From: Mycobacterium branderi
GTDB lineage: Bacteria > Actinomycetota > Actinomycetes > Mycobacteriales > Mycobacteriaceae
Length of the DNA: 64,000 nucleotides
Assembly (NCBI RefSeq): GCF_010728725.1
Contig: NZ_AP022607.1
Span: 558,001-622,000 of the forward strand
Direction of reading: 5' to 3'
The notes beneath the pieces were generated by a model. It worked only from the letters and a program-made list of their open reading frames with translations, did no database searches and was not told the origin of the DNA. Numbering within the stretch: position 1 is the stretch's first letter; each line of letters starts with the position of its first letter. The position numbers and the translations under genes were made by a program. Positions 42,276 to 63,588 of this stretch are shown one piece after another.

Positions 42276-42299
42276 ATTGTATACTACTTGACAGTATTT
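42276..42299 (+). promoter_or_regulatory. Conserved 24-bp promoter/operator element, copy 1
   Basis: Reads ATTGTATA, CTA, C, T, TGACAGTATTT on the + strand. The right half supplies TTGACA (42289-42294), followed after 16 bases by TATTCT, a promoter facing the GntR gene. On the minus strand the left half supplies TATACAAT, a -10 box facing the oxidoreductase gene at 42205. Three further copies are at 44041, 60621 and 63564. Confidence 0.62.
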
Positions 42300-42447
42300 G
42301 GTATTGCGATATTCTGTCACCATGGGCACCGCCAGTCCTCGGTCGCTGCATCGAACGGCAGCATCGGACGGGCGTGTCGAGCGTCCCTGCTTAGTTAACG
42401 CCGCCCGTCGCAAAAACACCGATCGTCGGTGCTGAACCAGAACCGCG

Positions 42448-43182
42448 ATGACCGACATCACCTCGACTGAGCATCTCTACATTCAGGTCGAACGCGCTCT
42501 GCGAAAAAGCATCTCAGAGGGTGAGTGCCCGGTCGGATCGCGACTGCCAACCGAACAGCAACTGGCTCAATGGTTTTCGGTAAGCCGTTACACTGTGCGC
42601 GAAGCGCTTCGACGACTCCGCGAGGAAAACCTCGTGTCGTCGCGTCCGCGCCGGGGGACACGGGTTGTTCGACGTCCCGGCTCGGATCAGCGCGACGTCA
42701 TGAGTATCGACGACCTCCGCACCTTCGCTGCCGGCACACGGCTGGCGCTCGAGTCCATCGAGATGGTCACGATCAACGCCGAATTATCGGAATTGACCGG
42801 TTTGAGCGGCGGTGAAAAATGGTTGGCAGTGCGCGGTTCGCGCCGGGCCGAAGATGCGCAGGTGCCCCTCTGCTGGATTGAGTACTTCATCAACCGTTGC
42901 TTCGCCGGGGTGGGAAGGTTCCTGCCTCGTCACAACGGTGCGATCTTCGCGTTGATCGAAGACCTGTATGGGGTGAGCATCCTGCAGGCCCGCGAGGAAA
43001 TCACTGCGATTCTGACTCCCGCGGAACTCGCTGTGGCCCTGCGAGTTCCGCCGGGAACCCCGGCCCTGAGGGTGCGGCGGACCTACCTGACGTCGGACGG
43101 CGTGGTGGCCCAGGTCACCGTGAACACCTATGCGGCGTCGCGATTCCGTCACTGCATGACGATTCGACGTGCGCGACGCTGA
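42448..43182 (+). CDS. GntR family regulator (HutC/UTRA subfamily)
   Basis: A 244-residue regulator. The winged-helix domain covers residues 8-75: YIQVERALRKSISEGECPVG, SRLPTEQQLAQWFSVSRYTV, REALRRLREENLVSSRPRRG. The C-terminal UTRA ligand domain is visible from about 90 on (GGEKWLAVRGSRR, LCWIEYFINRCF, EEITAILTPAELAVALRVPP). HutC-type proteins are released from DNA by small metabolites. It is divergent from the oxidoreductase gene, with the conserved element at 42276 between them, so this protein is a candidate to bind that element. No strong ribosome-binding site precedes the ATG. Confidence 0.92.
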   Translation: MTDITSTEHLYIQVERALRKSISEGECPVGSRLPTEQQLAQWFSVSRYTVREALRRLREENLVSSRPRRGTRVVRRPGSDQRDVMSIDDLRTFAAGTRLALESIEMVTINAELSELTGLSGGEKWLAVRGSRRAEDAQVPLCWIEYFINRCFAGVGRFLPRHNGAIFALIEDLYGVSILQAREEITAILTPAELAVALRVPPGTPALRVRRTYLTSDGVVAQVTVNTYAASRFRHCMTIRRARR

Positions 43183-43252
43183 TTGCGTTACGGAAACACG
43201 CGAAAGGCGCATTGACTGAGTAGTTCCGCTGGTGTCCACGCGATCGCCAGAG

Positions 43253-43732
43253 TCACTTGGCGGGCGTCTCTTCTCCCCCGTTGGCGTCGCCGAGGAAGGT
43301 CAGCACATTCTTGTGAATCAGGGTCAGCACCTCGTCGAGCTGCTCGCGCTGCTGACTCGTCGTGCCCCGGCGGATGTGTTTGCGCAGTTCGCGGTCGGCC
43401 GCCACGGTGCTCTCCCATAGGGCGCGACCCTCGTCGGTCAGGGTCACCAGCCACACACGGCGGTCCGTGGCGTCCGCCACTCGCCGCACCGCGCCTTTCG
43501 GCTCAAGGGAATCGACTAGGCCGCCGATGCGCGCGCGGCTGGTTCCGACGCGACGAGCAAGTTCAGACTGGGTGAGCTCGCCGTTGACAAGGTGGGCCAG
43601 CAGTGTCGCTTCCGCGAGATTGAGGCCGAAATCAGAAAACACCCGATCGTATGCGCGGCGCATGACCCGCGCCGTGGACATGATCGCCCCCTCAACCCGG
43701 GCCCACTGCGGCATGCTCCGCTGGTCATTCAT
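43253..43732 (-). CDS. MarR family transcriptional regulator (paralogue of the one at 55844)
   Basis: A 159-residue MarR protein. The DNA-binding part holds GELTQSELARRVGTSRARIG and GLVDSLEPKGAVRRVADATD with the wing RRVWLVTLTDEGRAL (about residues 50-105). By eye it is about two-thirds identical to the MarR protein at 55844-56338 over the whole length. It is divergent from the acyl-CoA ligase, and the conserved element at 44041 lies in between, so it probably represses the ligase operon and itself. The family usually responds to aromatic or acyl-CoA-type ligands. Confidence 0.9.
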   Translation of the reverse strand: MNDQRSMPQWARVEGAIMSTARVMRRAYDRVFSDFGLNLAEATLLAHLVNGELTQSELARRVGTSRARIGGLVDSLEPKGAVRRVADATDRRVWLVTLTDEGRALWESTVAADRELRKHIRRGTTSQQREQLDEVLTLIHKNVLTFLGDANGGEETPAK

Positions 43733-44040
43733 CAGGACACCTGTTCGTCGTTGTGCACGGGATGCACCCGGCTAGTATCGCAGTTGGCAATAACGTACCG
43801 GACGAACCGCGCGAAGTTGCGCGTACATGGTGCCCGCCGGTTGATCCGCGCCGGGAGATCGTCCTGGTTGGGCAAACTCCGGCGTCGCCGTTACCCGCTT
43901 TACCGACGTGTTCGACCCGGTCCGGGCGCCGGCCAGATTCCGGTTGCGCAAATGCCCTATCCCAGGCCTGGCCCTGCCGCCTCGCCCCGGGGCCGGGCCG
44001 GACGAGACGCCGCAGGCGAGCTTGCAGCATGCTGTAATGC

Positions 44041-44065
44041 TTTATACTGTCACGCGATATACAAT
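44041..44065 (-). promoter_or_regulatory. Conserved 24-bp promoter/operator element, copy 2
   Basis: On the minus strand ATTGTATA, TCG, C, G, TGACAGTATAAA. TGACAGTATAAA is followed by GCATTACAGCATGCT, so GTGACA with a CATGCT box 16 bases away faces the MarR gene, while TATACAAT on the + strand (44058-44065) faces the ligase, whose GTG is 41 bases downstream. The rest of the 373-base gap 43733-44105 shows no gene. Confidence 0.62.
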
Positions 44066-44105
44066 TAGTCTGGCTTGCAGGTTCGGATCAGGCGGTGGGC
44101 ACTCA

Positions 44106-45707
44106 GTGACTGACGAAGAGCGCATCGACTGGGGACGCGACATCGTCGTCGAGGACGTGCTCGGTGCGCCGACCCGGGTCTTCGCGCGGCGTCCGCGGCG
44201 GGCAGGCGACGTCATGCTCGAGGGGCGCCGGCGACCGCAGGCAACCTATGTCGTCGAAGACAGCCGGCGGCTGAGCTTTGCCGAGCACGAGTCGGGTGTG
44301 GCCGCCGTCCGGTCTCGATTGCACGCCGCCGGCGTCCGGTCCGGCGACCGGGTCATGATCGCCGGCGCGAACCGGATCGAATTCATCGTCAGCCTTTGGG
44401 CGGTCCTGCGTGCGGGTGCGGTCGCGGTTGTCGGCAATGCATGGTGGAGCGCCGCGGAACTGCAGGCCGCGATCGGGGTCACCGTTCCCCGCTGCATCAT
44501 CGCCGACGAGCGCCGGGCCCAGCTGCTCCCGGCGGATACCGAATGGCTGTCATTCGACGAGGTGCGCGATCTCACCGAGAGCGCACCACAGTGCCGGGAT
44601 ATCCCGTCGGCACCCGTCGCGGAAGACGACCCCGCTCTGATCGTTTTCACGTCCGGTACCACCGGCCACGCGAAGGCTGCCGAACTGTCTCATCGCGGCG
44701 TGGTGTCGACGCTGCAGAACTTCCTGACGATCACCGACAAGCTCCCCCGGCAGGACGGTGAGCCCGGTACCGGAAGCGTGAGTCTGCTGAGCCTTCCGCT
44801 GTTTCATGTCGGCGGGATCCAGCAGATCACCATAGCGATGGCCACCGGTGGCCGGCTCGTCTTCTGCACCGGCCGGTTCGAGCCCGCCCGGGTCGTGACC
44901 ATGCTCGCGCAGGAGCGGGTGCGCGCCTGGGCCGCAGTTCCGTCGATGGTGTCACGGGTCGCCGACTACGTGGAAGCCACCGCCGCGCAGCTGCCCGATC
45001 TCTACACGATCAATATGGGCGGAGGCCCGGTACCCGAACACGTTAAAGCGCGGGCGCGGGCGGCCTTTCCTCACTCGCGGCGGGGTATCGGGGTGACCTG
45101 GGGACTTACCGAAACCGGTGGTGCTGTCACCAGCGCCGCGGGCACCGCCGTCGCCGCGCGGCCGGGGACTGTCGGTCGGCCGCTGCCCACCTGCGAGGTA
45201 CGCGTGGCCGCGCCCGAAAGTGGCGGCAGCGGAGAACTGCTGGTGCGATCTCCGTCCGTCATGCTGCGCTATCTCGGCGACGCCGAGTCCCCGATCGAGG
45301 CCGATCGGTGGTTGCGAACGGGCGACGTCGGCTGGGTCGACGACGACTCCTTCGTCTACATCACCGACCGCGTCAAAGACATCATCATCCGCGGCGGTGA
45401 AAATGTCGCCGCTGCCCATGTCGAAGCGGCCATCGGTCGCAGCGCGCTGGTCGACGAGGTCGCCGTGGTCGGCCTGCCGCACGCCGATTTGGGCGAGGAA
45501 GTCGGTGCTGTCGTGTTCACCCGCAGCGGTCAACCCCTTGACGTGGAGGCAATCGAGGCAGAGTTGCGGGCAACACTGGCTCATTTTGAGGTGCCCTCGC
45601 GGTGGTGGGTTCGCTGCGAACCGTTGCCGCGCAACGCAACCGGGAAGATTGTCAAAGCCGACCTCAAATCAGAGTGGATCGCCAACCTCGAAACGACGCC
45701 GTCATGA
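44106..45707 (+). CDS. Acyl-CoA ligase (AMP-binding, FadD/class I adenylate-forming)
   Basis: A 533-residue ligase that adenylates a carboxylic acid and transfers it to CoA. The P-loop IVFTSGTTGHAKAAELSHRG is at about residues 177-196 (Ala replaces the usual Pro), TWGLTETGGAV near 337 is the A5 motif, RWLRTGDVGWVDDDSFVYIT and DRVKDIIIRGGENV near 410-435 the hinge, and RNATGKIVKADL near 510 carries the catalytic Lys. The GTG at 44106 is chosen over earlier starts because homologues begin just before the VVEDVLG stretch and because the promoter element lies at 44041-44065. An oxidoreductase gene follows after 82 bases. Confidence 0.92.
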   Translation: MTDEERIDWGRDIVVEDVLGAPTRVFARRPRRAGDVMLEGRRRPQATYVVEDSRRLSFAEHESGVAAVRSRLHAAGVRSGDRVMIAGANRIEFIVSLWAVLRAGAVAVVGNAWWSAAELQAAIGVTVPRCIIADERRAQLLPADTEWLSFDEVRDLTESAPQCRDIPSAPVAEDDPALIVFTSGTTGHAKAAELSHRGVVSTLQNFLTITDKLPRQDGEPGTGSVSLLSLPLFHVGGIQQITIAMATGGRLVFCTGRFEPARVVTMLAQERVRAWAAVPSMVSRVADYVEATAAQLPDLYTINMGGGPVPEHVKARARAAFPHSRRGIGVTWGLTETGGAVTSAAGTAVAARPGTVGRPLPTCEVRVAAPESGGSGELLVRSPSVMLRYLGDAESPIEADRWLRTGDVGWVDDDSFVYITDRVKDIIIRGGENVAAAHVEAAIGRSALVDEVAVVGLPHADLGEEVGAVVFTRSGQPLDVEAIEAELRATLAHFEVPSRWWVRCEPLPRNATGKIVKADLKSEWIANLETTPS

Positions 45708-45789
45708 AGCAGTTGTCGAGCGAACTTCGGCACCGACGACAAAACATTGCGCAACCCATCGTCAGCCAGCACCGTTGGGAGTGACCGAT

Positions 45790-46794
45790 ATGAAAGTGGC
45801 GATCCTGGGAACGGGCTTCGGTCAGTATGGCGCAGCTCCCGTTTACCGGAAGCTCGGATTCGAGGTCGAGGTCGTCACGCCGCGAGACGAGGCGGCCGTC
45901 GAGCGCGCACTGGCATCGGACGTGGATCTGGTGTCCATCCACTCGCCCCCCTTCATGCACTACGAGCATGTGATGAGGGCCATCGACCACGGCCATGCCG
46001 TGCTGTGCGACAAGCCTTTTGGCCGCAATGCCAAGGAGGCGCACGCGATGCGGGACCGGGCCTGCGAACGCGGAGTACTGAATTTCACCAACTTCGAACT
46101 TCGGTCAAAGCCCTCACGCGCCAAGATAAAGGAAATCGCGGACGCAGGTGTGATCGGAGTCCCCCGCCACTTGAGTTGGAGCTTCTTTAGCAACGGATTC
46201 CGCGGGGGAACCCACGGCTGGGTGAACGAGCGGGAATCGGGCGGAGGCTGGATCGGTGCGTACGCATCGCATCTCATTGACTTCACCCGGTGGCTATTCG
46301 GCAGTGAAGTGGCCAAATGCGGTGGGATTTCACGGATCGACGAGCCAACCCGTCCCGACCGGGACGGTGTAGAGCGCACCGCGACGGCGGAGGACGCCTA
46401 CTCTGCCTGGTTCGTCATGGCCAATGGCTGCACGGCAGTCCAGGACACCGCCTACGCGGCCGCGGCTCCCATGCCCTCCCGAATCACCTTGATGGGTACC
46501 GCCGGCGCGGTCGAACTTGTCGGTGACGTGAAGCTGGTTGTGCGGCGCGCGCCGGATCTGTCGGGCGTCTCCGCCGCAGAGCGCATCCGGCGGGGGGTGG
46601 TCGCCGGGGAGGGCGACGAAGTCTTCGACTTCCCGCCGCCGGCAGGAGAAGCCCATGAGCCGGCTTTGACTCCGTGGTTCGCCCGGGTGAAGGAAGCGCT
46701 GCGCACCGGCCGCCAGATTGCACCGTCCTTCGACGATGGGGTGGCTGTTGCGGAAGCCATGGATCAACTAAGGGCCAATCTGGACCGGGTCTAG
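45790..46794 (+). CDS. Gfo/Idh/MocA family NAD(P)-dependent oxidoreductase
   Basis: A 334-residue oxidoreductase. An N-terminal Rossmann domain opens with MKVAILGTGFGQYGA (GxGxxG at residues 7-12), followed by VSIHSPPFMHYEHV and the family signature CDKPFGRN with its Lys near residue 76. The C-terminal alpha/beta domain holds GGGWIGAYASHLIDFTRWLF (catalytic His) and ITLMGTAGAVEL. The ATG at 45790 is preferred, with GGGAGTG about 5 bases upstream; the frame continues far upstream inside the ligase gene as a shadow. Probably in one operon with the ligase, kinase-like and lipocalin-like genes. Confidence 0.92.
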   Translation: MKVAILGTGFGQYGAAPVYRKLGFEVEVVTPRDEAAVERALASDVDLVSIHSPPFMHYEHVMRAIDHGHAVLCDKPFGRNAKEAHAMRDRACERGVLNFTNFELRSKPSRAKIKEIADAGVIGVPRHLSWSFFSNGFRGGTHGWVNERESGGGWIGAYASHLIDFTRWLFGSEVAKCGGISRIDEPTRPDRDGVERTATAEDAYSAWFVMANGCTAVQDTAYAAAAPMPSRITLMGTAGAVELVGDVKLVVRRAPDLSGVSAAERIRRGVVAGEGDEVFDFPPPAGEAHEPALTPWFARVKEALRTGRQIAPSFDDGVAVAEAMDQLRANLDRV

Positions 46795-46874
46795 CGGCCC
46801 ATCGTTGCTGCGCTGCAACGAATCTGCAGCATCACTGCGGCCACCGGGCCCGCCCCAACGCGAGGAGCTTTTCC

Positions 46875-47939
46875 ATGAGTGATGTGCAATCGACGCTGCG
46901 TGCTGTGATCGGTAGCGGTAAAGGTGTGGTGCGCAAAGTTGGTGCCGCCGCGATTTGCCGATTCATCGAAAGTCGCCCAGACGTCGCCGGCGACGTCGAC
47001 GTGACCCTGGTCGGTGAGGCCAGTGAGGTCGGGGCGTCGAGCGGCATCGTGCTCTTCGACGTGAGCTATGACACCGGCCAAGCCCGGGTTGCCCGCCAGC
47101 TGGTGTTACGCCACGCACCGGCCGGCGACCGGCGGTTATTCGTCGAGTACGACATGGCGCGGCAATTCCAGGTTCAGCGGGCCATGCAAGGCGGGAATGT
47201 GCCGGTGCCCGAGCCGGTATGGCTGGATTCGGATGGCCGCTGGCTCGGCGTGCCCGGCTACACGATGGCGCGTGCACACGGAGTCGCTCCACACACCGCG
47301 AGCTTTCTGCGCGGGCCACTTGCTGAGGCTTCGCCGGACGATCGCGAGGAGATGCTCGGCCAAGTCATGAAAGCCCTTGTCGGTATTCACACCACCGACA
47401 TCAAGGCCGGCGGGCTGGAGAACTTCGTGATGAACGCGACCGGCAGCGCGCCGCTGGAGCGCTGCATCAACTGGTATTGGCGGACCTGGGACTGGGTTCG
47501 TCCGCCGAACTTCGAGCGCCTGGTGCCGGTGCGGCGCTGGTTGCTGGACAACCTTCCTGACGGTGAGCCCGAGCTGATCCACGGCGATCCGCTGCTGCAT
47601 AACTACATGTTCGACGGCACGCGTCTGGTCGCCGTTTTGGACTGGGAGGTATCGACTTTGAGCCGTGCGGAAGCTGATCTGGCATTCCAATGCGTCGGCA
47701 ACCAGCTCTTCGCGCCACCGCCCGACAGCGGGTTGTTGATGCCGCCGGGCGAAGCGGAGTGGCTGGCGATGTACCGCGCCGCCGGCGGGCGGCCGCTACG
47801 TGACTTCGAGTACTTCAAGAAGCTTGCGGCGTACATGCTTCTGGTGGCCTACGGCTCGTTGCGGCGGAACATGACGGCCGCCGAATGTGCGGGCCTGGAA
47901 CCGTTGTTGCAGCAATGTTGGCTGCTGGCCGAGCCATGA
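46875..47939 (+). CDS. Aminoglycoside phosphotransferase-like kinase (APH/choline kinase fold)
   Basis: A 354-residue protein with the eukaryotic-like kinase fold of the APH family. The nucleotide-binding Lys is replaced or moved (RQLVLRHAPAG carries Arg), the catalytic loop is ELIHGDPLLHNYMFDG near residue 237 and the metal-binding DWE follows (VAVLDWEVSTLS). Such proteins are frequent beside acyl-CoA dehydrogenases and ligases in mycobacteria and may phosphorylate a hydroxylated lipid or acyl-CoA; true substrates are not known. GAGGAG lies about 7 bases before the ATG at 46875. The next gene follows after 21 bases. Confidence 0.88.
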   Translation: MSDVQSTLRAVIGSGKGVVRKVGAAAICRFIESRPDVAGDVDVTLVGEASEVGASSGIVLFDVSYDTGQARVARQLVLRHAPAGDRRLFVEYDMARQFQVQRAMQGGNVPVPEPVWLDSDGRWLGVPGYTMARAHGVAPHTASFLRGPLAEASPDDREEMLGQVMKALVGIHTTDIKAGGLENFVMNATGSAPLERCINWYWRTWDWVRPPNFERLVPVRRWLLDNLPDGEPELIHGDPLLHNYMFDGTRLVAVLDWEVSTLSRAEADLAFQCVGNQLFAPPPDSGLLMPPGEAEWLAMYRAAGGRPLRDFEYFKKLAAYMLLVAYGSLRRNMTAAECAGLEPLLQQCWLLAEP

Positions 47940-47960
47940 CTAGCACGAAGGAGATCGACG

Positions 47961-48980
47961 ATGTCTGTTGAGGCCGGTGACAAGGCGTTCTGGGAGACGA
48001 AGAATGCATCGTTTTCGGCTGCCACGCCCGACTGTGACCTTTTGCATCCGCAGTTCACCCAGCGGAATCCTTCGTCCTCGCTGACCGAAACGCACTTCTT
48101 CGGTTTCAGTGTGCCCGAGGAGAATATCCATGCGATCACCTACCTGTGGCATCACCCCAACCTCGGTGTGGTCAGCGGCGGCGCGTCGGTATGGCAGGGC
48201 ATCAAGTCACATCCGCTGGCCTCCGAGCTGTTCAACTGGACAAGCTTCGCCGGTGAGGACATGCTCGCCAACGACCTGTGGGACTACCGTTTCGACAACG
48301 GCTATCACGTGCAGACGCTGGAGCCGCTGAAGCGGCACAGGCTGCGCTATGTCGATCATGCACGAGACAACGCATTCGATGTCGAAACGGAGGCACTGAT
48401 GGAGCCGGCGCTGTTGGCGACCGGCTTGCATTTCGAGCAGGCGATGCGCGTCCGGGGTGAACTCACTTTGCGCGGCAAGACCTATCAGGTCGACTGCACA
48501 CACGTGCGGGATCGCTCCTGGGGTCAAGGGCGCAGCGAAATGCACGCGCCGATGCCACCCATCACCTGGACGACCGGCGTGTTCGGAGACACCCTCATGT
48601 TCGGCTGCCTGGCTCACGACCACCCGGACCTGAACCCGGACTGGAAAGGGCGTCTGGAAATTCCGGGTGGCGATCCGACCAAAGGCGGCTGGGTTTACCG
48701 CAACGGCACGCTTGTTCCCATCGTCGCGACGCGTAACCGCGTCCAGCGCGACTACGCCACCCTGGCGCCGGTCACAGCCGACATCGTAATGACCGACGCG
48801 ACCGGACACGATTACGCTCTTCATGGCGAAGTCGTCGCAGCCAACCGCCTTCCTGCGTGGCTGAATGTCGACACCTGGATCTGCCTTGCGCGCTGGGAAT
48901 ATCACGGCCAAATCTGCTACGGCGAGCTGCAACAGATGCAATGGCACGACTACATCCGGCAATTCCTGGGAGGTCGGTAA
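47961..48980 (+). CDS. Lipocalin-like (AttH/carotenoid hydratase-like) protein of unknown function
   Basis: A 339-residue protein, probably of the DUF7064/7065 group that is often found next to APH-like kinases. Sequence features are beta-rich: ETHFFGFSVPEENIHAITYL, a central DCTHVRDRSWGQGRSEMHAP (the DRSWG stretch is typical), and the C-terminal WLNVDTWICLARWEYHGQ. The predicted fold is a double calycin barrel, able to hold a hydrophobic ligand. AAGGAGATCGACG precedes the ATG at 47961. Last gene of this operon; the nitroreductase gene converges on it from 12 bases away. Role inferred only from fold and context. Confidence 0.78.
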   Translation: MSVEAGDKAFWETKNASFSAATPDCDLLHPQFTQRNPSSSLTETHFFGFSVPEENIHAITYLWHHPNLGVVSGGASVWQGIKSHPLASELFNWTSFAGEDMLANDLWDYRFDNGYHVQTLEPLKRHRLRYVDHARDNAFDVETEALMEPALLATGLHFEQAMRVRGELTLRGKTYQVDCTHVRDRSWGQGRSEMHAPMPPITWTTGVFGDTLMFGCLAHDHPDLNPDWKGRLEIPGGDPTKGGWVYRNGTLVPIVATRNRVQRDYATLAPVTADIVMTDATGHDYALHGEVVAANRLPAWLNVDTWICLARWEYHGQICYGELQQMQWHDYIRQFLGGR

Positions 48981-48991
48981 CGGAGCGGCAC

Positions 48992-49630
48992 TCAGAATCG
49001 GTTGTAGCTCAGAACTTCCGACACCGGCTTTCGATACACCTTCTTGAAGTCGGTGCCGATCGTATAGGCGATCGGGAACAAGCCCACTTGTGTGTACTGA
49101 TCGTGCGGGATGCCCAGCAGCTCGGCGATCTGCTTTTCCCGGCGCGAAGCGACCGTTGTCCAGGCCGAGCCGAGGCCACGCTCGCGCAAGGCCAAAAAGA
49201 AGCTCCAGACGGCCTGAATGATCGAGCCCCACATCGCACATTGCTCGGGAAGGCTCTTGCCCTCCGGGCGACCGGGCATCAGCGGTATCAGGATCGCCGG
49301 CATCCGGTCCAGCTTCTCGGCGAGCGCGTACGCGGACGCGACGATCGCGTCCCCGCCGGGAACATCATGGGACGCGGCCGGCTTTCCCGGCTGGCTGTGC
49401 TGGTAGGCGCTCATCGCCGCCCGATATTCCGCAGCGAGTTTCGTCACCATTTCCCGATCGTCAACGACAATCCAGCGCCATTCGTTGCGGTTTTCAGCGT
49501 TGGGTGCCTGCAGGGCGAGTTCCAGACATTCTTCAAGCAGGGCGCGGGGCACCGGTGTCGTTACGTCGAGACGTCGACGAACGGCGCGCGTCGTCGTTAA
49601 GACTTCGTCGACCGTAAGATTCAGCTTCAT
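48992..49630 (-). CDS. Nitroreductase family flavoprotein
   Basis: A 212-residue FMN-dependent oxidoreductase. RAVRRRLDVTTPVPRALLEE is the typical opening with the FMN-binding Arg cluster, LALQAPNAENRNEWRWIVVD follows, and the C-terminal region has GLGSAWTTVASRREKQIAEL and the LGIPHDQYTQVGLFPIAYTI stretch. The ATG at 49630 has AGAGG about 7 bases upstream; the open frame extends further without homology. Family members reduce nitro groups, quinones or enones with NAD(P)H. Convergent with the lipocalin-like gene and probably cotranscribed with the hydrolase 77 bases upstream. Confidence 0.9.
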   Translation of the reverse strand: MKLNLTVDEVLTTTRAVRRRLDVTTPVPRALLEECLELALQAPNAENRNEWRWIVVDDREMVTKLAAEYRAAMSAYQHSQPGKPAASHDVPGGDAIVASAYALAEKLDRMPAILIPLMPGRPEGKSLPEQCAMWGSIIQAVWSFFLALRERGLGSAWTTVASRREKQIAELLGIPHDQYTQVGLFPIAYTIGTDFKKVYRKPVSEVLSYNRF

Positions 49631-54332: not shown

Positions 54333-54483
54333 TGCAGCACCTCCTGATCAGAACGAGCCGCGCCACCCGATGGCGGCACAGGCATCGAAATCCTCATGCC
54401 GGCCCCTTCCAACCGGAAGAACACAGGCCGGGCTCCTCACTGTGTTATGACGCCGCTGACCCAGCCTACAAGGTTGGAACCAA

Positions 54484-54512
54484 GTTGACAATATCGGACT
54501 TTACAGTAGGCT
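54484..54512 (+). promoter_or_regulatory. Predicted promoter of the MaoC-like/MarR genes
   Basis: TTGACA (54485-54490), 16 bases, TAGGCT (54507-54512). The -35 box is inside GTTGACAATATCGG, repeated with one change at 56449-56462 before the OYE-type gene. The minus strand of the spacer reads TACTGTAAAGTCC, distantly like the conserved 24-bp element. The remainder of the gap 54333-54647 shows no gene. Confidence 0.5.
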
Positions 54513-54647
54513 GCGAGCAGCAGAACTACTTCTCGTGAGGCCCCAAATCCAGCTCCGGCGGGGCGATCGCGAGCACAGCCGAACCCCGGGCGCCGCAGGG
54601 GGCACCGGTCCGCACCGCACGAGGCGGCGCGTCGAAGGCAGGAGACT

Positions 54648-55820
54648 ATGACACAAGAGATAACCGTCGATATCGACGATGATGAGGGGCCCCGATTCGC
54701 CACGATCACCGACGATGCGGTGGAACGGCTGCGCCGCGCGATTGGTGTCCCGATCGCCGACACCGTCGAGCCGTGGTGCTACGAAGCGACCCGCGACAAC
54801 ATACGCCACTACGCCCACGGGATCGGCGATGACAACCCGTTGTGGTGCGACCCGGAATACGCCAACACCGGCCCGTACGGGACATTGATTGCCCCGCCGA
54901 GTTTTGTGTTCGCCCTCAGCCGGATCCTGTCGGGCTACGTCGGGGGGTTGCCGGGCATCCACGCCATGTGGGCCGGCGCCGACCTGCATTGGCACCAACC
55001 GATTCGGCGCGGGACGGAAGTGAACACCAAGGCGTGGCTCAAAGACCTCATCGAGCACCAGACGCGATTCGCAGGACGCGCATTCCGGCAGATTTATCAC
55101 GTCGAGTTGTCCTCCAGCACAGGCGAGTTGCTCTGTGAGGGTGATTCATGGTGCTTTCGAACAGAACGCGACACTGCCCGCTTGAGCGGCACGAAATATG
55201 ACGAAGCCAAGAGTCGGCCGCCCGCGCGCTATTCGGAGGAGGATCTGCGCGAAATATTCTCGCGCTACGACGATGAAGTCGTCCGCGGTTCGCAGCCACG
55301 GTATTTCGAAGATGTGCAGGTCGGCGATCGGTTGCCGACCATGGTCAAAGGGCCCATGACCGTGACAGGCTTCATCGCCTACGCGCAGGGCTGGGGTGGT
55401 CTGTACATCAGAGCCAACAAGCTCGCCTACAAGCAGATGAGCAAACATCCCGGGCTGGGCATCCCCAACCGTTTCGGCATCCCCGACGTGCCCGAACGTG
55501 TTCACTGGGAAGACGAATTCGCCAGGGCGGTCGGCACTCCGGGTGCTTACGACTACGGGCCCGAACGCTGCTCGTGGCTCATCCACCAGCTGACGAACTG
55601 GATCGGCGACGACGGTTTCGTGGTGAAGCATTCCTCGCAGATCCGGCATCACAATGTGGTGGGCGACTGGATCCGTATCGAAGGGTCGGTGACGGCGGTG
55701 GATCATGACGGCGGGGACGGTGCAACAGTGACTGTCACCCAGCGGGCCTACAACCAGCACGATGAGTTGTCGGCATCCGGTACCGGTGTGGTGCGGCTAC
55801 CGCGTCGACGTCGCGGATAG
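54648..55820 (+). CDS. MaoC-like / FAS1-type dehydratase with two hotdog domains
   Basis: A 390-residue protein with two hotdog folds. The N-terminal FAS1-type part has ATRDNIRHYAHGIGDDNPLW and PYGTLIAPPSFVFALSR. The C-terminal MaoC-like part has FEDVQVGDRLPTMVKGPMTV and VHWEDEFARAVGTPGAYDYG with SSQIRHHNVVGDW. These proteins hydrate or dehydrate CoA esters. Usual catalytic Asp/His pairs are partly visible (GIGDDNPLW). GGCAGGAGACT precedes the ATG at 54648. It is followed by a MarR gene 23 bases downstream and then an OYE-type reductase, so it probably acts in a CoA-ester pathway with them. Confidence 0.9.
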   Translation: MTQEITVDIDDDEGPRFATITDDAVERLRRAIGVPIADTVEPWCYEATRDNIRHYAHGIGDDNPLWCDPEYANTGPYGTLIAPPSFVFALSRILSGYVGGLPGIHAMWAGADLHWHQPIRRGTEVNTKAWLKDLIEHQTRFAGRAFRQIYHVELSSSTGELLCEGDSWCFRTERDTARLSGTKYDEAKSRPPARYSEEDLREIFSRYDDEVVRGSQPRYFEDVQVGDRLPTMVKGPMTVTGFIAYAQGWGGLYIRANKLAYKQMSKHPGLGIPNRFGIPDVPERVHWEDEFARAVGTPGAYDYGPERCSWLIHQLTNWIGDDGFVVKHSSQIRHHNVVGDWIRIEGSVTAVDHDGGDGATVTVTQRAYNQHDELSASGTGVVRLPRRRRG

Positions 55821-55843: not shown

Positions 55844-56338
55844 ATGCGGGCAGATGCGCTGATGAGTGAGCCGGACGGGGCGCAGCGGTGGGACCGTGTC
55901 GAGGGCACCATCATGTCCACCGCGCGCGACATGCGCCGCGCCTATGATCGGGTGTTCTCGGAGGTCGGTGTCAACCTCGCGGAGGCGACGGTGTTGGCTC
56001 ACCTCGTCGACGGTCCACTCACGCAGGCCGAACTTGCTCGTCGCGTCGGAACCAGCCGCACACACGCCGGTGGCCTGATCGACTCGTTGGAACCAAAAGG
56101 TGCAGTGCGGCGAGTGGCGGATGTCAACGATCGGCGGGTATGGCTGGTGACCCTGACCGAAGAGGGCCGTGCGATGTGGGAACGCTCCGCGGCGGCCGAC
56201 CGGGAACTGCGCAAAAACTTCCGTCTCGGGACGACGATGCAGCAGCGCGAGCAACTCGACGCGGTATTAGCGATGGTTCAGCAAAATGTGCTGGTACTGC
56301 TCGACGAGGCTGGTCGGGTCGGCGGGGCCAGGACCTGA
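55844..56338 (+). CDS. MarR family transcriptional regulator (paralogue of the one at 43253)
   Basis: A 164-residue MarR protein. GPLTQAELARRVGTSRTHAG and GLIDSLEPKGAVRRVADVND with the wing RRVWLVTLTEEGRAM form the DNA-binding part. The close likeness to the MarR protein at 43253-43732 across the recognition helix suggests similar operators. The ATG at 55862 (MSEPDG) fits the paralogue's start better than the one at 55844; neither has a strong ribosome-binding site. It lies 23 bases after the MaoC-like gene. Likely targets are the promoters at 54484 and 56449. Confidence 0.88.
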   Translation: MRADALMSEPDGAQRWDRVEGTIMSTARDMRRAYDRVFSEVGVNLAEATVLAHLVDGPLTQAELARRVGTSRTHAGGLIDSLEPKGAVRRVADVNDRRVWLVTLTEEGRAMWERSAAADRELRKNFRLGTTMQQREQLDAVLAMVQQNVLVLLDEAGRVGGART

Positions 56339-56478: not shown

Positions 56479-56588
56479 TTTGCACAGCGAAGGCGGCGGG
56501 GTCCGGATCGGAAGGGAGCTGATGTGGCGACATCGGTCGAAGTGCCCCTCTGGGGTGGCGCGGCTCGTTCGGATAAGGAGGGCCTGTT

Positions 56589-58757
56589 GTGAACGCGGCT
56601 GCTGCGCATCCCAAATATCCGAAGGTGTTCAGTCCGATCAAGCTGGGCCCCATTGAGATTGCCAACCGGTTCTACTTCGCCCCCCATGGGCTGAATCTGG
56701 CCCTCGGAACCGAGCCGAGCAATGATTTTCCGTACTACAGCGCCGAGCGCGTCCGGGGCGGGTGCGGCCTGGTCATCACCAGCCTGAATTTGCACGGGAA
56801 GGTCTTCGGCATGCCGTCGCCGTACCCGGAGAGGAACGTCCCGTCGTTTCAGGCGATGGCTGATGCGATCCACCGCGAGGGCGGCAAGATTTTCGGTCAG
56901 GTTTGGTACAACCCGTTTCAGGTCGGGCAATGGGGTGCTCTTGGTCCGCCGCGACCTGCGCTCGGGCCGTCGTCGGCCCAAACCTTCGGCAACAATGAAT
57001 GCAGCCACGCGCTGCGGGCAGACGAGGTTCGCAGCCTGATCGATGCATACCGGCGGTCCGGGGCGAACCTTCGCCGTGCCGGCTACGACGGCCTGGAGTT
57101 AAGCGTGTGCCACGGCACGCTTCTCGAGCAGTTCGCCTCACCGTATTTCAACCAGCGCACCGACGAGTACGGCGCCGCGCCGGCCAACCGGTTGCGACTG
57201 ATTTTCGAATGCCTGCAGGCCGCCCGTGACGGCGCGGGCGACCAACTGGCGATTGGGATCCGGTTCAACTGCGACGAGATGCTTCCGGGCGGTTACACCC
57301 AGTCGGACGCCACCGAGATGCTGCGTGAGATCTGCGGGTCGGGTCTGGTGGACTTCGTGGATCTCGATGTCGCAGTGGAACCCAACCAATTTCACTTGGG
57401 CATGCCGTCGGTGTTCGTGAGTCCACACGTCTATGAGCCGTACGTCATTGCGATGCGCGATGCGGCCGGCTCCGTTCCGGTGATCAGTGTCCTTGGTCGG
57501 CTGACGTCGCTGGCAGAGGCCGAGACCGCCATCGCCGACGGTGTCTGCGACATGGTGGGCGCCGCCCGGGCCTTGATCGCCGAGCCGGATCTGGTGCGCA
57601 ACGCGCGCGAGGGCAATGAGGACCGTAGCCGCACCTGCATCGCGTGCAACTGGTGCATGGCGTCGTTTCCCCGGGGCGCCGCCGGATGCACGATCAACCC
57701 GGCGAGTTTCCGCGAAAGGATCTGGGGCGGTGGCTTCATCGGGAAGGGCGCCGCCAAACCGTCGAAAGTAGTGGTCGTAGGCGGTGGACCGGGCGGGCTT
57801 GAGGCCGCGCGGGTGGCCGCGTCACGAGGGCATGAGGTGGTCCTGCTGGAGTCCGGCGACCGGCTCGGCGGTGGTCTTCGTCTCTGGGCCACGCTGCCCG
57901 GCCGGGAGTGGTTCGAAAAGGGCGTGGACTGGTGGGCCGGCGAGCTGACCCGACTCGGCGTCGACGTCCGGCTCGGCGTTAAGGCGACCGCCGAGACGGT
58001 TCTCGGCGAGTCCCCCGACGCTGTGATCGTCGCGACCGGATCACGGTATTCGCCCACCGGCCGGAGCGGTTTTCTCAACCAGCCCATCGATGGTCACGAT
58101 CAGGACTTCGTCTACAGGCCGGAGGACGTTCTTCGCGAGGGGCTGCGTCCCAAGGGAAAGGTAGTCCTGCTCGACGGGGAGGGTACCCATGCCGGTCCCG
58201 GGATCGCGGAATTGCTCGCCCATGGCGGGGCCGACGTCGAACTGGTGACATCGGGGTTCGCGCCGGTCGGCCAAGACCTGATGTACACCGGTGAGGTCGG
58301 GTTCATCGTCGGGCGGATCAAGGCCGCCGGCGTCACCATCTCGACACAGACTTATCTGCGCAGTATCGGTAACCACGAGGTGACGGTTTACGACGTCTTC
58401 ACCGGGGCGGAGCGAACCATCACCGGTGTCGAGGCGGTGGTACTTGCGACGTCGCGAGAGCCCAACGACGAGTTGACCGATGCGCTTGAAGGTAAAGTGA
58501 CGCAACTATTTACGATCGGCGACGCGCTGGCGCCCCGGCCGATGGCCGCGGCCTCGTTCGAAGGACAAAAGTTCGCGCGCTTCATCGGTGAGCCCGGCGC
58601 GCCCACCACATTCAACGAAGCATTCTGGCCGGATGAGCCGTACGAGAACATGCCCCAGCCCGCCGCTGTCCTGCTCGACCGAAGTGAGGTGTCCGCACCT
58701 CAGCTCGATCTGGTCGGTGCGGGCAGCGCGCCGGGGAGCGCCACCGACGACGCGTAG
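56589..58757 (+). CDS. OYE-type FMN / 4Fe-4S / FAD oxidoreductase (2,4-dienoyl-CoA reductase-like), copy 2
   Basis: A 722-residue flavoprotein, paralogue of the one at 18904. Old-yellow-enzyme barrel from YPKVFSPIKLGPIEIANRFY to about residue 335, with SVCHGTLLEQFASPYFNQRT. Iron-sulphur loop CIACNWC, then GCTINP (C-x2-C-x2-C-x10-C) at about 350-367. FAD/NAD(P) part opening VVVVGGGPGGLEAARVAA near residue 395. The GTG at 56589 has AAGGAGGG about 5 bases upstream. In the barrel the HxxH pair of copy 1 (HASHG) is VCHG, keeping one His. Likely a reductase of unsaturated CoA esters or enones in the pathway of the MaoC-like gene. Confidence 0.93.
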   Translation: MNAAAAHPKYPKVFSPIKLGPIEIANRFYFAPHGLNLALGTEPSNDFPYYSAERVRGGCGLVITSLNLHGKVFGMPSPYPERNVPSFQAMADAIHREGGKIFGQVWYNPFQVGQWGALGPPRPALGPSSAQTFGNNECSHALRADEVRSLIDAYRRSGANLRRAGYDGLELSVCHGTLLEQFASPYFNQRTDEYGAAPANRLRLIFECLQAARDGAGDQLAIGIRFNCDEMLPGGYTQSDATEMLREICGSGLVDFVDLDVAVEPNQFHLGMPSVFVSPHVYEPYVIAMRDAAGSVPVISVLGRLTSLAEAETAIADGVCDMVGAARALIAEPDLVRNAREGNEDRSRTCIACNWCMASFPRGAAGCTINPASFRERIWGGGFIGKGAAKPSKVVVVGGGPGGLEAARVAASRGHEVVLLESGDRLGGGLRLWATLPGREWFEKGVDWWAGELTRLGVDVRLGVKATAETVLGESPDAVIVATGSRYSPTGRSGFLNQPIDGHDQDFVYRPEDVLREGLRPKGKVVLLDGEGTHAGPGIAELLAHGGADVELVTSGFAPVGQDLMYTGEVGFIVGRIKAAGVTISTQTYLRSIGNHEVTVYDVFTGAERTITGVEAVVLATSREPNDELTDALEGKVTQLFTIGDALAPRPMAAASFEGQKFARFIGEPGAPTTFNEAFWPDEPYENMPQPAAVLLDRSEVSAPQLDLVGAGSAPGSATDDA

Positions 58758-58901
58758 GCCGCATCGAGGTCGTGCCGTTTTGCCGCTCGGCGAAGCGCGA
58801 CACAGCACCGCCGGCGACACAACGACCGCCTAGCGGGGACTGAAACTCCTTGTGCAACAACTGTGCTCAGCCGGAAATCGGTTAACGACGTCTGACGATA
58901 T

Positions 58902-60512
58902 TCAACGGCCACCGTCAGAGTTCTGGCGCCGCAGCGCGAGGACGCTGCCGTCACCGTCGGCTGAGAAGTACAAAGTGCCGTCACGCCCCGCGGCGATGCC
59001 CGCGAACGGGCCCTGTGGACCGGAGAAGGGCGCCATCCCACGCAACGGTTTGGCGATCACCCCGGGCGGCGCGCCCAGGGGAAGGTCGAACGCGATCGTG
59101 TGCCGGTCACGGGTCCGGGTGTCGAAGGCAATCACTGCCTTCGCGCCGGCGTCGACGACGAACAATTGGCCGTCGTGTACCAGGATCCCCTGGGGGGTGT
59201 GCAATCCCTCGGCGAGGGTGTGCGCGCCGGAACTCGTGATCTTCACTATCCGCCCGGTCGCTGATTCAGTCACCAGGCACGTGCCGTCGGGGCCGATCGT
59301 CACTCCCACCGGGTCCTGCAAACCCGAAGCCAACGTCCGGACCTCGCCGGAGCGAATCGCCAGCACCCCTCCGGTGCCGAGTTCGGCGACCACGGCGGTG
59401 CCGTCCGGGCCGACCGCCACACCGTAGAGCTGGTCGAAACCGTCTGCGAGTACCTCGCTTTCGCCGTCGGCAGGGCGGTATCGCGCCACCTGACCATTGG
59501 AGGTGGTCACGATGAACTTGCCGTCGCCAACCGGGGCCAGTCCTCGCAGGAAGCCGGGATAGCCGGGGGCGAACAGCATCCCGGCAGTGTGCAACTGGCC
59601 GTCGGCCGCCAGCCGATAAAAGTAGATGCCATCTGCGATATACAGATTGCCGTCGTCGGCCACGGCCAAATCCAGCGGCCAGTTCAAACCACCGGACAGC
59701 AGCGGGCTGGCCTTTCCGCCCTCGAGGATCTCGGTGATCTGGCCGTTCAGACTGGAGACGAACAATCGCTGATCGACGAACGACAAATTGTCCAGCCCCG
59801 GATCGAGCTCGGCGAGCACGGTGCGTTCACCGTTGCGAGGGTTGATCCGCAGCACTTGGCCGCTGTGGAGCTGCGTGGACACGATGTAGCCTTCAGCGTC
59901 GAACTTCACCGAGTCGGGCACGCCGAGGTCTGCCGCGACGGTTTCGGGTCGGCCGCCGTCCGGGTCGATGCGCCAGATCTCGTTGGCGCCCATCACCGGG
60001 AAATAGAGCAGCCCGTCGGGCCCGACCTCCATTGCATTGGGCATCGGCACGTTCTCGAGCAACACGCGTGGCGTCCCGCCGTTGCGGTCGAGTTCCAGCA
60101 GACGTCCGCCTTCCCGGCATTCGCCGACGAACAACCGGTCGCGAAAAACGGTGATGCCGTTGGCGAGTGGGATGTCGTCGCGCAGCACCCGGGCCTGTCC
60201 GCGTCGGTCGAGCGCGCTTACCCGCCCGTCCATGACTTCGGTCGCGAACATATTGCCGTGCTCGTCGAACGCAAGGTCGTCGGGCCCGATGATCTCGCCG
60301 CCCTTGGCGCTGACGACGTCCAACGCACCGCTTGTGGTGTCCATTGCGCTGATCTGACTGCCGGTGACTTGGGCGACGTAGAGACGACCGTCAGGACCGG
60401 TGCGCAATCCGTTGGCGCCGAATAGCCGACTGGGCGGGGTGATCCGGTCCAGCTGCCAACCCTCGGCGACGCCCGGGCTGTGCGCGGCGCGGTAGCGCCC
60501 GGGTGCGGTCAT
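58902..60512 (-). CDS. SMP-30/NHL-like beta-propeller protein, double length
   Basis: A 536-residue protein built of repeated PDG-containing blades (GPDGRLYVAQ, DEHGNMFATE, GPDGLLYFPV, DDGNLYIAD, GPDGTAVVAE, GPDGTCLVTE, GRDGTLYFSA), about 40-45 residues apart, enough for two six-bladed propellers. Single-propeller relatives are gluconolactonase/SMP-30-type lactonases or Vgb-like lyases. No signal peptide or membrane segment is visible, so cytoplasmic unless exported otherwise. The ATG at 60512 is divergent from the P450 gene, and the element at 60621 lies between them. A lactonase that opens a hydroxylated or Baeyer-Villiger product is a reasonable but unproven guess. Confidence 0.85.
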   Translation of the reverse strand: MTAPGRYRAAHSPGVAEGWQLDRITPPSRLFGANGLRTGPDGRLYVAQVTGSQISAMDTTSGALDVVSAKGGEIIGPDDLAFDEHGNMFATEVMDGRVSALDRRGQARVLRDDIPLANGITVFRDRLFVGECREGGRLLELDRNGGTPRVLLENVPMPNAMEVGPDGLLYFPVMGANEIWRIDPDGGRPETVAADLGVPDSVKFDAEGYIVSTQLHSGQVLRINPRNGERTVLAELDPGLDNLSFVDQRLFVSSLNGQITEILEGGKASPLLSGGLNWPLDLAVADDGNLYIADGIYFYRLAADGQLHTAGMLFAPGYPGFLRGLAPVGDGKFIVTTSNGQVARYRPADGESEVLADGFDQLYGVAVGPDGTAVVAELGTGGVLAIRSGEVRTLASGLQDPVGVTIGPDGTCLVTESATGRIVKITSSGAHTLAEGLHTPQGILVHDGQLFVVDAGAKAVIAFDTRTRDRHTIAFDLPLGAPPGVIAKPLRGMAPFSGPQGPFAGIAAGRDGTLYFSADGDGSVLALRRQNSDGGR

Positions 60513-60620
60513 CGACGACTCTCATCGGTCACGTCGCGCGGTGGGCCGGCGCTGATGTGGCTCAACAAGCCCTCCCTATCGAGGCTTGACGGTACGCATG
60601 CCTGCAGAATACTGCAACAC

Positions 60621-60645
60621 CTATACTGTCAAGTAGTATACAATA
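60621..60645 (-). promoter_or_regulatory. Conserved 24-bp promoter/operator element, copy 3
   Basis: On the minus strand ATTGTATA, CTA, C, T, TGACAGTATAG. TTGACA is followed after 15 bases by TATTCT, facing the beta-propeller gene, and TATACAAT on the + strand (60637-60644) faces the P450 gene at 60717. The ATACTGTCAAGTAGTATACAATA core is identical to copy 1 read in reverse. Confidence 0.65.
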
Positions 60646-60716
60646 TCGTGGCTGGGCGTATGCAGCGGCGGGCAGCAACCCGCCGACTCGACTCGGCTTT
60701 GGGAGGCGCGCATACC

Positions 60717-61985
60717 ATGGACAACTTCGACTCCGTCGACTTCTTCACCGACCCTTCTGTCGTTCCTGACCCGTATCCGTATTTCGACTACCTTCGCGAC
60801 AAGGGCCCCGTGGTCCCGCTACCCCATTACGGCGTTGTCGCCATCACCGGTTACGACGAGGCCAACGCCGTCCTGAAGAACAACGACGCCTTCTCCAACA
60901 TCGCCGCGATCGGTGGCCCATTTCCGCCGCTGCCGTTCGAACCCGAGGGCGACGACATCAGCGCCCAGATCGAGGCGCACCGCGACCAGTTCCCGATGTG
61001 TGAGCAGATGTCGACAATGGATCCGCCGCAGCACACTCGCGCGCGCTCGCTGCTGAGCCGCCTGCTGACGCCGAGCCGGCTCAAGGAAAACGAGGAGTTC
61101 ATGTGGCGTCTCGCCGACCGCCAGCTTGAAGAGTTCCTCGGCAACGGCGAATGCGAGTTCATCGCTGAATATTCCAAGCCCTTCTCCACCTTGGTGATCG
61201 CCGACTTGCTCGGTGTGCCCGAAGACGACCACAAGGAGTTCCGCATAATGCTGGGCGTCGATCGCCCGGTGATCGGCGCCCTCGACCATGAATCGGTGGG
61301 CGCCCCGCTGGAGCGGCTCGACGAGAAGTTCTGCTCCTACATCGAGGACCGGCGCCGCCGGCCTCGCGACGACGTGCTGACGGCGCTGGCCACCGCGAAG
61401 TATCCCGACGGCTCTACGCCCGAGGTCATGGATGTGGTCCGCACGGCCAGCTTCTTGTTCGCCGCCGGTCAGGAAACCACCGCCAAGCTATTGGGCGCCG
61501 CCCTGCAAACGCTCGGCGATCGGCCCGATATTCAGCAGAAGCTGCGTGCGGACCGCAGCCTCATCCCGGCCTTCATCGAGGAATCGCTGCGCATGGAGAC
61601 CCCGACCAAGAGCGATTTCCGGCTGGCCCGCAAACCTGCCACGGTGGGCGGTGTCGACATCCCCGCCGGCACCATCGTGATGATGTCACTGGGCGGGATT
61701 AACCGCGATCCGCGCCGGTTCGACCACCCGCATGAGTTTCGCCTTGACCGCAAGAATGTCCGCGAGCACATGGCATTTGCCCGCGGAGTGCACTCGTGCC
61801 CCGGTGCGCCGCTGGCCCGGGTGGAGGGCCGTGTTTCGATCGAGCGGATCCTGGACCGGATGTCGGACATCACGATCAATGAAGCCAAACATGGACCGGC
61901 CGGTCAGCGCCGCTACAGCTACGAGCCGACATACATGTTGCGCGGACTCACCGAACTGCACCTCACCTTCACGGCCGCGCGTTAA
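60717..61985 (+). CDS. Cytochrome P450
   Basis: Complete P450 of 422 residues. I-helix AAGQETTAK at 249-257, with Gln252 where most P450s have His, Asn or Asp; K-helix EESLR at 288-292; haem loop FARGVHSCPGAPLAR at 354-368 with ligand Cys361. GGGAGG lies 10 bases before the ATG at 60717; the frame reaches further up but crosses the promoter element. The partial P450 at 63696 is about 73% identical over the visible 101 residues. No ferredoxin gene is adjacent; the one at 6577 could serve. Confidence 0.95.
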   Translation: MDNFDSVDFFTDPSVVPDPYPYFDYLRDKGPVVPLPHYGVVAITGYDEANAVLKNNDAFSNIAAIGGPFPPLPFEPEGDDISAQIEAHRDQFPMCEQMSTMDPPQHTRARSLLSRLLTPSRLKENEEFMWRLADRQLEEFLGNGECEFIAEYSKPFSTLVIADLLGVPEDDHKEFRIMLGVDRPVIGALDHESVGAPLERLDEKFCSYIEDRRRRPRDDVLTALATAKYPDGSTPEVMDVVRTASFLFAAGQETTAKLLGAALQTLGDRPDIQQKLRADRSLIPAFIEESLRMETPTKSDFRLARKPATVGGVDIPAGTIVMMSLGGINRDPRRFDHPHEFRLDRKNVREHMAFARGVHSCPGAPLARVEGRVSIERILDRMSDITINEAKHGPAGQRRYSYEPTYMLRGLTELHLTFTAAR

Positions 61986-62035
61986 GCTCTGAGCCCAACG
62001 TGGTTTCACAAGTGCCTGCTAGCGGGGGCGGTGGA

Positions 62036-63310
62036 GTGCACATAGCGGGATGGTCGGGTGTACGCTCGGCCGCGGCAACGGTGCGGCAGTGGATATTCCG
62101 CGTGTTTCGATCCCCTGCATTCGGTCTTGCGGCAATCACTGCGCTGGTTTTCGGCGGGGTGGTCGGTGCTGCTGCTCCGTCCGTTCCGCCGCCGACGCAG
62201 ACGCTGCACGGTGCCGCCATCACCCCACTGGCCGCGGTCGCACCGGCATCCACCGATCCGTCGGGTCCGTTGGTGATCACGGTCAAGCACCCGCCGTCCG
62301 GCCTGCATTTCGCGGCGGCCACCGTGTCGGCGCCGCCGCCCACGGTCGTCGTGAATTCGCCTGGCGCCCTGGGGATTCCGTCGATGGCGCTGTCCGCGTA
62401 CCGCAACGCCGAGCGGATGATGGCCAACGCCTACCCGAACTGTGGGATCAGCTGGAACCTGCTGGCGGGGATCGGGCGCATCGAGTCGATGCACGCCAAC
62501 GGCGGTGCCACCGACGCCCGGGGCACCGCGGTGCGGCCGATCTACGGCCCCGCCCTGGACGGCACGCTGCCCGGAAACGAGGTCATAGTCCAAAGCAGCG
62601 CCCCCGGCCGGGTCACGTTCGCACGCGCGATGGGGCCGATGCAGTTCCTGCCCGGAACCTGGGCGCGGTATGCCTCCGACGGCGACGGCGACGGCATCGC
62701 CGACCCGCAGAACCTGTACGACTCCACGCTGGCCGCGGCGCGCTACCTGTGCAGCGGCGGCTTGGACCTGCGCGACTCGCAGCAGGTGCTGTCGGCGATC
62801 CTGCGCTACAACAACTCGATGCCCTACGCCCAGAACGTGTTGGGCTGGGCGGCCGCGTACGCCACCGGTGTGGTGCCGGTCGACCTGCCGCCGCTCACCG
62901 GTGCCCCGCCGCCGCTCGCCGACATGCATCTGGAGCATTTGGAGAACGCCGAGGGCATCGGGCCCGGGCTGCCGCTGAACATCCACGGCCTGCCCTCGAC
63001 CGACCCGCTGGCGCAGATGCCGCTGATCGACCTCAGCCAATCCGCCGCCGCCGGCCAGCAACCGATGTGGCCCTGGGCCCAGCAGCAGCAACAGCAGCAA
63101 CAACTTGGCCCGCGCTCGTCGAGCTGCACGGTCATCTGCATCACCTCGCAAGATACGCCGGTTTTGCAGCCGCCAGTGCTAGGTCCGCCCGTGCCGCCCG
63201 GGCCGGCCCAGCCATCGCCGGACGCCACGCCCGTTGCGCCGCCGACGGCTCCCCCGCCCGGTCCGCCACCAGGCCCGACGGAGGCCACGCAACCTGGCCG
63301 GCCCGGCTAA
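62036..63310 (+). CDS. Lytic transglycosylase-like cell-wall protein (MltB/SLT-like)
   Basis: A 424-residue protein with an N-terminal membrane segment or signal peptide (FGLAAITALVFGGVVGAAAP), a Pro/Ala-rich linker of about 60 residues, and a transglycosylase domain (about 110-280) with NLLAGIGRIESMHANGG, whose Glu is the likely catalytic acid, GPMQFLPGTWARYASDGDGD and the ILRYNNSMPYAQNVL end. The C-terminal 140 residues are low-complexity and Pro-rich with eight Gln in a row and two Cys (SSCTVICITS). It cleaves peptidoglycan without water to give anhydro-muropeptides. The GTG at 62036 is a likely start. It breaks the P450 pair and is probably unrelated to their function. Confidence 0.88.
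   Translation: MHIAGWSGVRSAAATVRQWIFRVFRSPAFGLAAITALVFGGVVGAAAPSVPPPTQTLHGAAITPLAAVAPASTDPSGPLVITVKHPPSGLHFAAATVSAPPPTVVVNSPGALGIPSMALSAYRNAERMMANAYPNCGISWNLLAGIGRIESMHANGGATDARGTAVRPIYGPALDGTLPGNEVIVQSSAPGRVTFARAMGPMQFLPGTWARYASDGDGDGIADPQNLYDSTLAAARYLCSGGLDLRDSQQVLSAILRYNNSMPYAQNVLGWAAAYATGVVPVDLPPLTGAPPPLADMHLEHLENAEGIGPGLPLNIHGLPSTDPLAQMPLIDLSQSAAAGQQPMWPWAQQQQQQQQLGPRSSSCTVICITSQDTPVLQPPVLGPPVPPGPAQPSPDATPVAPPTAPPPGPPPGPTEATQPGRPG
63080..63103 (+). repeat. CAG/CAA repeat coding for eight glutamines
   Basis: Eight Gln codons in a row (five CAG, three CAA) inside the transglycosylase gene, in the linker between the catalytic domain and the Pro-rich tail. Short repeats of this kind can change length by slippage; loss or gain of whole codons would leave the frame intact. 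Confidence 0.8.
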
Positions 63311-63563
63311 CTGACAGGCCGTCCATCGCCCGTCCGGGTTAAGCCCGCGACACGATTGAGACATCGACCATAAACCTGCGTGCACAACACTTTTCGGGTA
63401 TCGCGAGACTCGCGGTCTGCGGCCGGCATCAGCGCTTCGCGCGGCACTGCGGAGTCGCGCCGAGCGACGCGGGCCTAGGCGGACTACGAAAACCGACGGG
63501 CCAAACGGCGACACTTGCGGCCCGCAAAGACCTTGCCGTGCGCCGGCCGATGGCCAGGCAGGG

Positions 63564-63588
63564 ATTGTATAGGCCTTGACAGTATAAA
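63564..63588 (+). promoter_or_regulatory. Conserved 24-bp promoter/operator element, copy 4
   Basis: Reads ATTGTATA, GGC, C, T, TGACAGTATAAA on the + strand. TTGACA (63576-63581), 16 bases, TATGCT (63598-63603) faces the P450 gene at 63696. The stretch after TGACAGTATAAA (TGATTGCAGTATGCT) matches the one beside copy 2 at 12 of 15 bases. The minus-strand TATACAAT faces no gene here. The remainder of the gap 63311-63695 shows nothing. Confidence 0.65.

Follow-up and report, generated by a model that had tools for sequence, protein, structure and literature searches.

A conserved promoter element linked to MarR-family regulators in an oxygenase-rich gene cluster of Mycobacterium branderi

Which protein recognises a short DNA element that recurs before several genes of Mycobacterium branderi, and how far does its regulon extend? 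The preliminary description of this locus reported a 24-bp element at four promoters and proposed that it marks a small regulon, with GntR and MarR proteins as candidate binders. The window (the whole stretch of 64,000 nucleotides analysed, C2:558001-622000) belongs to a genome of 5,979,623 bases in 2 contigs.

Sites of the element and the surrounding gene cluster

The four reported sites were found at 42276-42299 (+), 44041-44065 (-), 60621-60645 (-) and 63564-63588 (+), and their intergenic position was upheld: two of the four fall inside long automatic ORFs, the beginnings of which, by our reading of the sequence, lie upstream of the likely starts at 44106 and 60717. The strong matching reported earlier is also real, but the count of 17–19 out of 20 fixed positions needed correction, as the pattern has 21 fixed letters and a recount gave 18, 21, 19 and 21, slightly better than before. 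With up to 3 mismatches, TTGTATANNNCNTGACAGTATA recovered exactly these four sites in the 64-kb window and nothing in 100 shuffles. Alignment of the M. branderi and M. arosiense sites revealed that conservation runs ~20 bp further downstream, so the 24-bp element is real but merely part of an element of ~44 bp. Its parts are further half-sites and the dyad AYTGT-N10-ACART, which overlaps a -35-like box. The coordinates of the sites and of the genes discussed below are collected in Table 1.

Table 1. Sites of the element and associated genes in M. branderi (window positions unless a contig is given)
Feature	Position	Strand	Context or proposed role
Fifth site	C2:548530, 9.5 kb before the window		between ThDP-enzyme and glyoxalase-family genes; absent from the preliminary description
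DapB-like (DAP_DH_C) oxidoreductase	41111..42235	-	proposed target
Operator 1	42276..42319	+	between the DapB-like (-) and GntR (+) genes
GntR/UTRA regulator	42448..43182	+	proposed target
marR1	43253..43732	-	proposed binder
Operator 2	44022..44065	-	between marR1 (-, start ~290 bp away) and the acyl-CoA ligase (+)
Acyl-CoA ligase	44106..45707	+	proposed target; among NCBIfam models closest to steroid-24-oyl-CoA synthetase, scoring under that model's cut-off
Operator 6	54473..54516	+	divergent variant before the MaoC-marR2 operon; absent from the preliminary description
MaoC/FAS1-dehydratase-like gene	54648..55820	+	immediately upstream of marR2
marR2	55844..56338	+	a further candidate binder; paralogue of MarR1 at 70% identity
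SMP-30/NHL-type beta-propeller protein	58902..60512	-	proposed target
Operator 3	60602..60644	-	between the beta-propeller gene (-) and the P450 (+)
Cytochrome P450	60717..61985	+	proposed target
Operator 4	63564..63607	+	before the second P450 (ATG 63696)
Second cytochrome P450	63696..64000	+	extends beyond the window end; named by the earlier reading and likeness to the first P450

At five of the six M. branderi sites, the right half-site contains TTGACA, and at operator 2 the -35-like hexamer is GTGACA. In operator 1, TTGACA lies at 42288 and TATTCT ends at 42315; a promoter scan covering 42150-44150 called this pair (TTGACA-16-TATTCT) together with a weaker divergent match on the other strand, and made no call at operator 2. 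A TATNCT-like hexamer can be read at several further sites. The variant operator 6 has TTGG in its left half and ACAATAT in its right half, and its weight-matrix score lies below the cut-off of 9.

The sites are restricted to one gene cluster. Across the whole genome, TTGTATANNNCNTGACAGTATA at up to 3 mismatches gave five matches, all between C2:548530 and 621586 (73 kb), while the reversed-pattern control gave two at that threshold and none at up to 2 mismatches. The right-half pattern TTGACARTAT-N6-TTNCAGTANNCT (up to 3 mismatches) likewise matched five times, always in the cluster and including a new position, 54485 of the window, within operator 6; it also matched six times in M. arosiense (G329) and once in another mycobacterial genome, G142. 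The same search found nothing in G018 or G171, and its controls gave 0 in all five genomes. Replacing N6 by N5 yielded one known site each in M. branderi and M. arosiense, and one control match. A three-half-site pattern returned four matches in M. branderi (three known), three in M. arosiense and one in G142, with one control match, in M. arosiense; the extra M. branderi match, in contig C1, looks like background.

The cluster contains P450s, Rieske oxygenases, OYE-type reductases, acyl-CoA ligases, mce-type genes and a PtlE-like enzyme (below cut-off), which we take to be of the Baeyer-Villiger type. This gene content suggests a substrate that is lipophilic and resembles a terpenoid or steroid. 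Both MarR proteins, encoded together with the sites, score above the cut-off for the winged-helix Pfam families MarR_2 and MarR.

The mce-type run occupies 22733-31283 of the window, inside the cluster, with an MlaE permease at 30381 and an MlaD-like protein, just below the Pfam cut-off, at 28462. It has 68-80% matches in M. arosiense contig C452, and upstream of it we saw only a weak operator-like match. The acyl-CoA ligase gene is followed, on its own strand, by genes for an APH-family phosphotransferase and a DUF7064/DUF7065 protein (46674-48980). A megablast search with 23 kb against plasmids returned one record with a 99-base match only.

Counterparts in M. arosiense and other mycobacteria

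Among 100 relatives, TTGTATANNNCNTGACAGTATA at up to 2 mismatches matched M. branderi (G000) as the sole genome. Among 396 same-genus genomes, the motif at this threshold was present in four (the reversed control in one) and relatives of MarR1 (E ≤ 1e-20) in five, both counts appearing to be drawn from the same 396 genomes. Motif and MarR occurred together in three of them (G000, G142 and G329), and G421 had a motif match without a MarR at the cut-off; the MarR of G171 (47%) has no element within its 20 kb. At up to 3 mismatches, there were six matches in M. arosiense, one in G142 and none in G018 or G171, the latter two giving one control match each. When the MarR search was widened to the order (E ≤ 1e-22), two genomes out of 397 were hit, and neither was new.

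Most cluster genes are matched in M. arosiense at 68-95%, in a rearranged gene order. All six M. branderi sites have a counterpart there at the matching promoter, with its orientation relative to the gene unchanged. The promoters are those of GntR/DapB-like, beta-propeller, P450, ThDP enzyme, MaoC-marR and marR1/ligase, the counterpart at the last being weak with 5 mismatches. The pairing of the P450 site rests on identity, because a single P450 stands near the M. arosiense beta-propeller gene (79% identical to the second and 73% to the first M. branderi P450), with two sites between. Further M. arosiense sites lie at C432:86113, C432:89723 and C54:3999. The preliminary description had suggested scanning the genome and related species; in M. 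branderi the matches proved confined to one cluster, with counterparts at matching M. arosiense promoters.

The M. arosiense ThDP gene (C432:102677-103423) is partial, with 125 of 588 residues matched, though the operator in front of it is well preserved.

All six close marR genes, from four genomes, carry the element before the gene or before its MaoC-marR operon, albeit with uneven strength. The M. branderi marR1 element is strong but lies ~290 bp before the start. Those of M. branderi marR2 and of M. arosiense contig C452 are exact to the right-half pattern with a variant left half, and the remaining three (M. arosiense C427, G142 and M. pinniadriaticum, G018) are weaker, with matrix scores of 11-14.

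Distant marR loci and the candidate binder

Scanning genome contigs with a MarR alignment returned 17 loci, of which three are close mycobacterial ones, 12 come from MAGs and two are distant. The 12 MAG loci belong to Acidimicrobiia or are labelled only Actinomycetota (L021 and L022), and their MarR proteins are 36-53% identical; L023 and L027 are near copies of each other, and L030 and L031 (29 and 32%) were left out of the 12-locus counts. With a weight matrix built solely from 12 mycobacterial sites, 7 of these 12 loci had the best match of the locus no more than 130 bp before marR. For 300 column-shuffled matrices the mean was 0.94 loci, and 7 of 12 was reached once.

The dyad itself points the same way. 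AYTGT-N10-ACART occurs exactly five times in the 12 loci, every time within 130 bp before marR; with one mismatch allowed it occurs 12 times, ten of them in that position, in nine loci. In one more locus, L018, the sole match precedes a MaoC gene located before marR, as in G000, G329 and G018. No exact match was found in the 12 loci with spacers of 4-9 or 11-16, and at up to one mismatch spacers 5 and 6 also occurred before marR (4 of 5 and 2 of 4). Including L030 and L031 raises the one-mismatch count to 13, with 11 before marR. Since the dyad, although read from the mycobacterial sites, was counted only after the distant upstream sequences had been viewed, the matrix test is the cleaner of the two.

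The one-mismatch dyad in L030 (9942-9961) stands just before a very distant marR (29%) in a Geobacteraceae MAG.

In 12 aligned mycobacterial rows, counting complementary pairs favoured centres 20.5 and 46.5 over all others tried (60 and 59 of 96 pairs; next best, 43), corresponding to AYTGT-N10-ACART and TTGCAG-N4-CTGCAA, 26 bp apart. Shuffling partners among rows (5000 shuffles) reached the observed value in 0.3-0.5% of cases for the former and 4.8-5.2% for the latter. Dyad and 15-bp direct-repeat scores were no higher than in column-permuted controls (not significant), and the mycobacterial dyads alone are therefore suggestive only. For the third half-site, ACAR at a distance of 15 bp, the count of 11 of 12 distant loci is an upper figure because the candidate and its orientation were chosen per locus to favour ACAR.

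Of the two candidates named earlier, the MarR proteins gain from these results and GntR loses. The GntR/UTRA regulator would, as binder, control itself together with the cluster, and operator 1 indeed sits in its promoter; a site is present at its closest M. arosiense relative (73%) too. Yet we found no GntR relative (E ≤ 1e-12) in the 4-20 kb stretches around the 12 distant marR genes; in G142, a relative at 54% that stands 2 kb away from the MarR gene has no element at a matrix score of 9 or more, and neither does a GntR/UTRA paralogue (L007 2923-3750, 63% identical) beside another acyl-CoA ligase. The sites did not follow the GntR gene across genomes, and we rejected it as the binder; its ownership of the operator is very unlikely, and it looks like a target of the regulon. 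Another cluster regulator could also be responsible, such as the TetR protein at 35694, which has relatives in M. arosiense and G018. This is very unlikely, given that no relative was found at E ≤ 1e-20 in 60 kb from G142 and that MarR alone of the cluster proteins is matched in all 12 distant loci.

The element might instead have no dedicated binder and be nothing more than a strong vegetative promoter, TTGACA with a -10 box, duplicated across the cluster. The promoter call at operator 1 and the TATNCT-like hexamers fit such a reading, but conservation extends to the left half, on the upstream side of the -35 box, and the fifth site faces away from the ThDP gene and has a poor -10, yet recurs in M. 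arosiense. Neither TTGTATANNNCNTGACAGTATA nor the right-half pattern matches the genome outside the cluster, and distant marR genes are preceded by the dyad too, leaving this explanation with little probability. MarR is the most likely binder because the dyad precedes distant marR genes and those stretches contain no GntR relative. On these grounds, the element is very probably the operator of the cluster-encoded MarR-family regulators, MarR1 and probably its paralogue MarR2, our confidence being lowered by the weak autoregulatory sites and by the order in which the dyad count was made. The initial proposal, a small regulon whose members share an operator, is backed by the cluster confinement, the M. 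arosiense counterparts and the link to MarR.

Proposed mechanism and comparison with known systems

MarR is probably an autoregulated repressor of the oxygenase-rich catabolic cluster. The sequence itself shows the sites, their conservation, their restriction to the cluster and their link with marR, whereas binding of the protein to the DNA, its action as a repressor and not an activator, the pair of dimers and the inducer are inferred, as follows. A MarR dimer would bind the 20-bp dyad, in the right half of which TTGACA (or GTGACA) can serve as the -35 box, and a second dimer would probably occupy the next half-site, 15 bp on, which in mycobacteria may form part of the second dyad over the -10 region. 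Bound MarR would shut out RNA polymerase at the cluster promoters and at the promoter of its own gene; repression is the natural reading, activation being the alternative. Release could be brought about by a pathway compound, perhaps a CoA thioester from the adjacent ligase.

A clean split in specificity between MarR1 and MarR2 was considered, as their recognition-helix regions differ and the left half of operator 6 is variant. We do not claim it, because the M. arosiense protein P0015, encoded behind the same variant operator, keeps MarR1-type residues. As a tentative generalisation, which we regard as possible, this MarR subfamily in two groups of Actinomycetota may use an operator of three or four half-sites (the 20-bp dyad and a tandem half-site 15 bp on) seating two dimers on different DNA faces, which in mycobacteria would have travelled with a catabolic cluster and given rise to a regulon that two paralogous regulators share.

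What was a sequence pattern without a name becomes, through these results, a regulator-operator pair that can be tested, and an operator code is proposed for a MarR subfamily, so far uncharacterised, from two actinomycetotal groups. The element also shows how far a large oxygenase-rich cluster, which few mycobacteria carry, extends, and the inducer, once found, would point to the substrate of the cluster. Among the matches listed in a search of open-licence literature, no operator of this kind was found; the motif strings led to one Bacillus genome-editing paper. The KstR and KstR2 cholesterol regulons of mycobacteria are similar in that a dedicated repressor controls genes of lipid catabolism associated with an mce importer, but these repressors belong to the TetR family and use other operator sequences.

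The closest functional parallel is CouR of Rhodococcus jostii RHA1. Its box, cATTGA-N5-TCAATg, is an inverted repeat that covers part of a TTGAcA -35 box, and a CoA thioester serves as its ligand (PMC4737184). Like the system proposed here, CouR is a MarR repressor of a small catabolic regulon of four promoters, with one site between divergent promoters and an inverted repeat overlapping a -35 sequence (-35-like at the M. branderi sites). It differs in that CouR matches MarR1 weakly (E 1.1e-5), and ATTGA-N5-TCAAT was not seen at the cluster sites, which read TTGT-N10-ACAG. More generally, MarR proteins act as dimers on inverted repeats and are often autoregulated (PMC5487221, PMC4737184). The M. 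branderi element shares with autoregulated MarR operators a palindrome in the marR promoter and divergent catabolic genes, and is set apart from MarR operators generally by its distinct sequence and by extra half-sites in a 15-bp register (PMC5487221).
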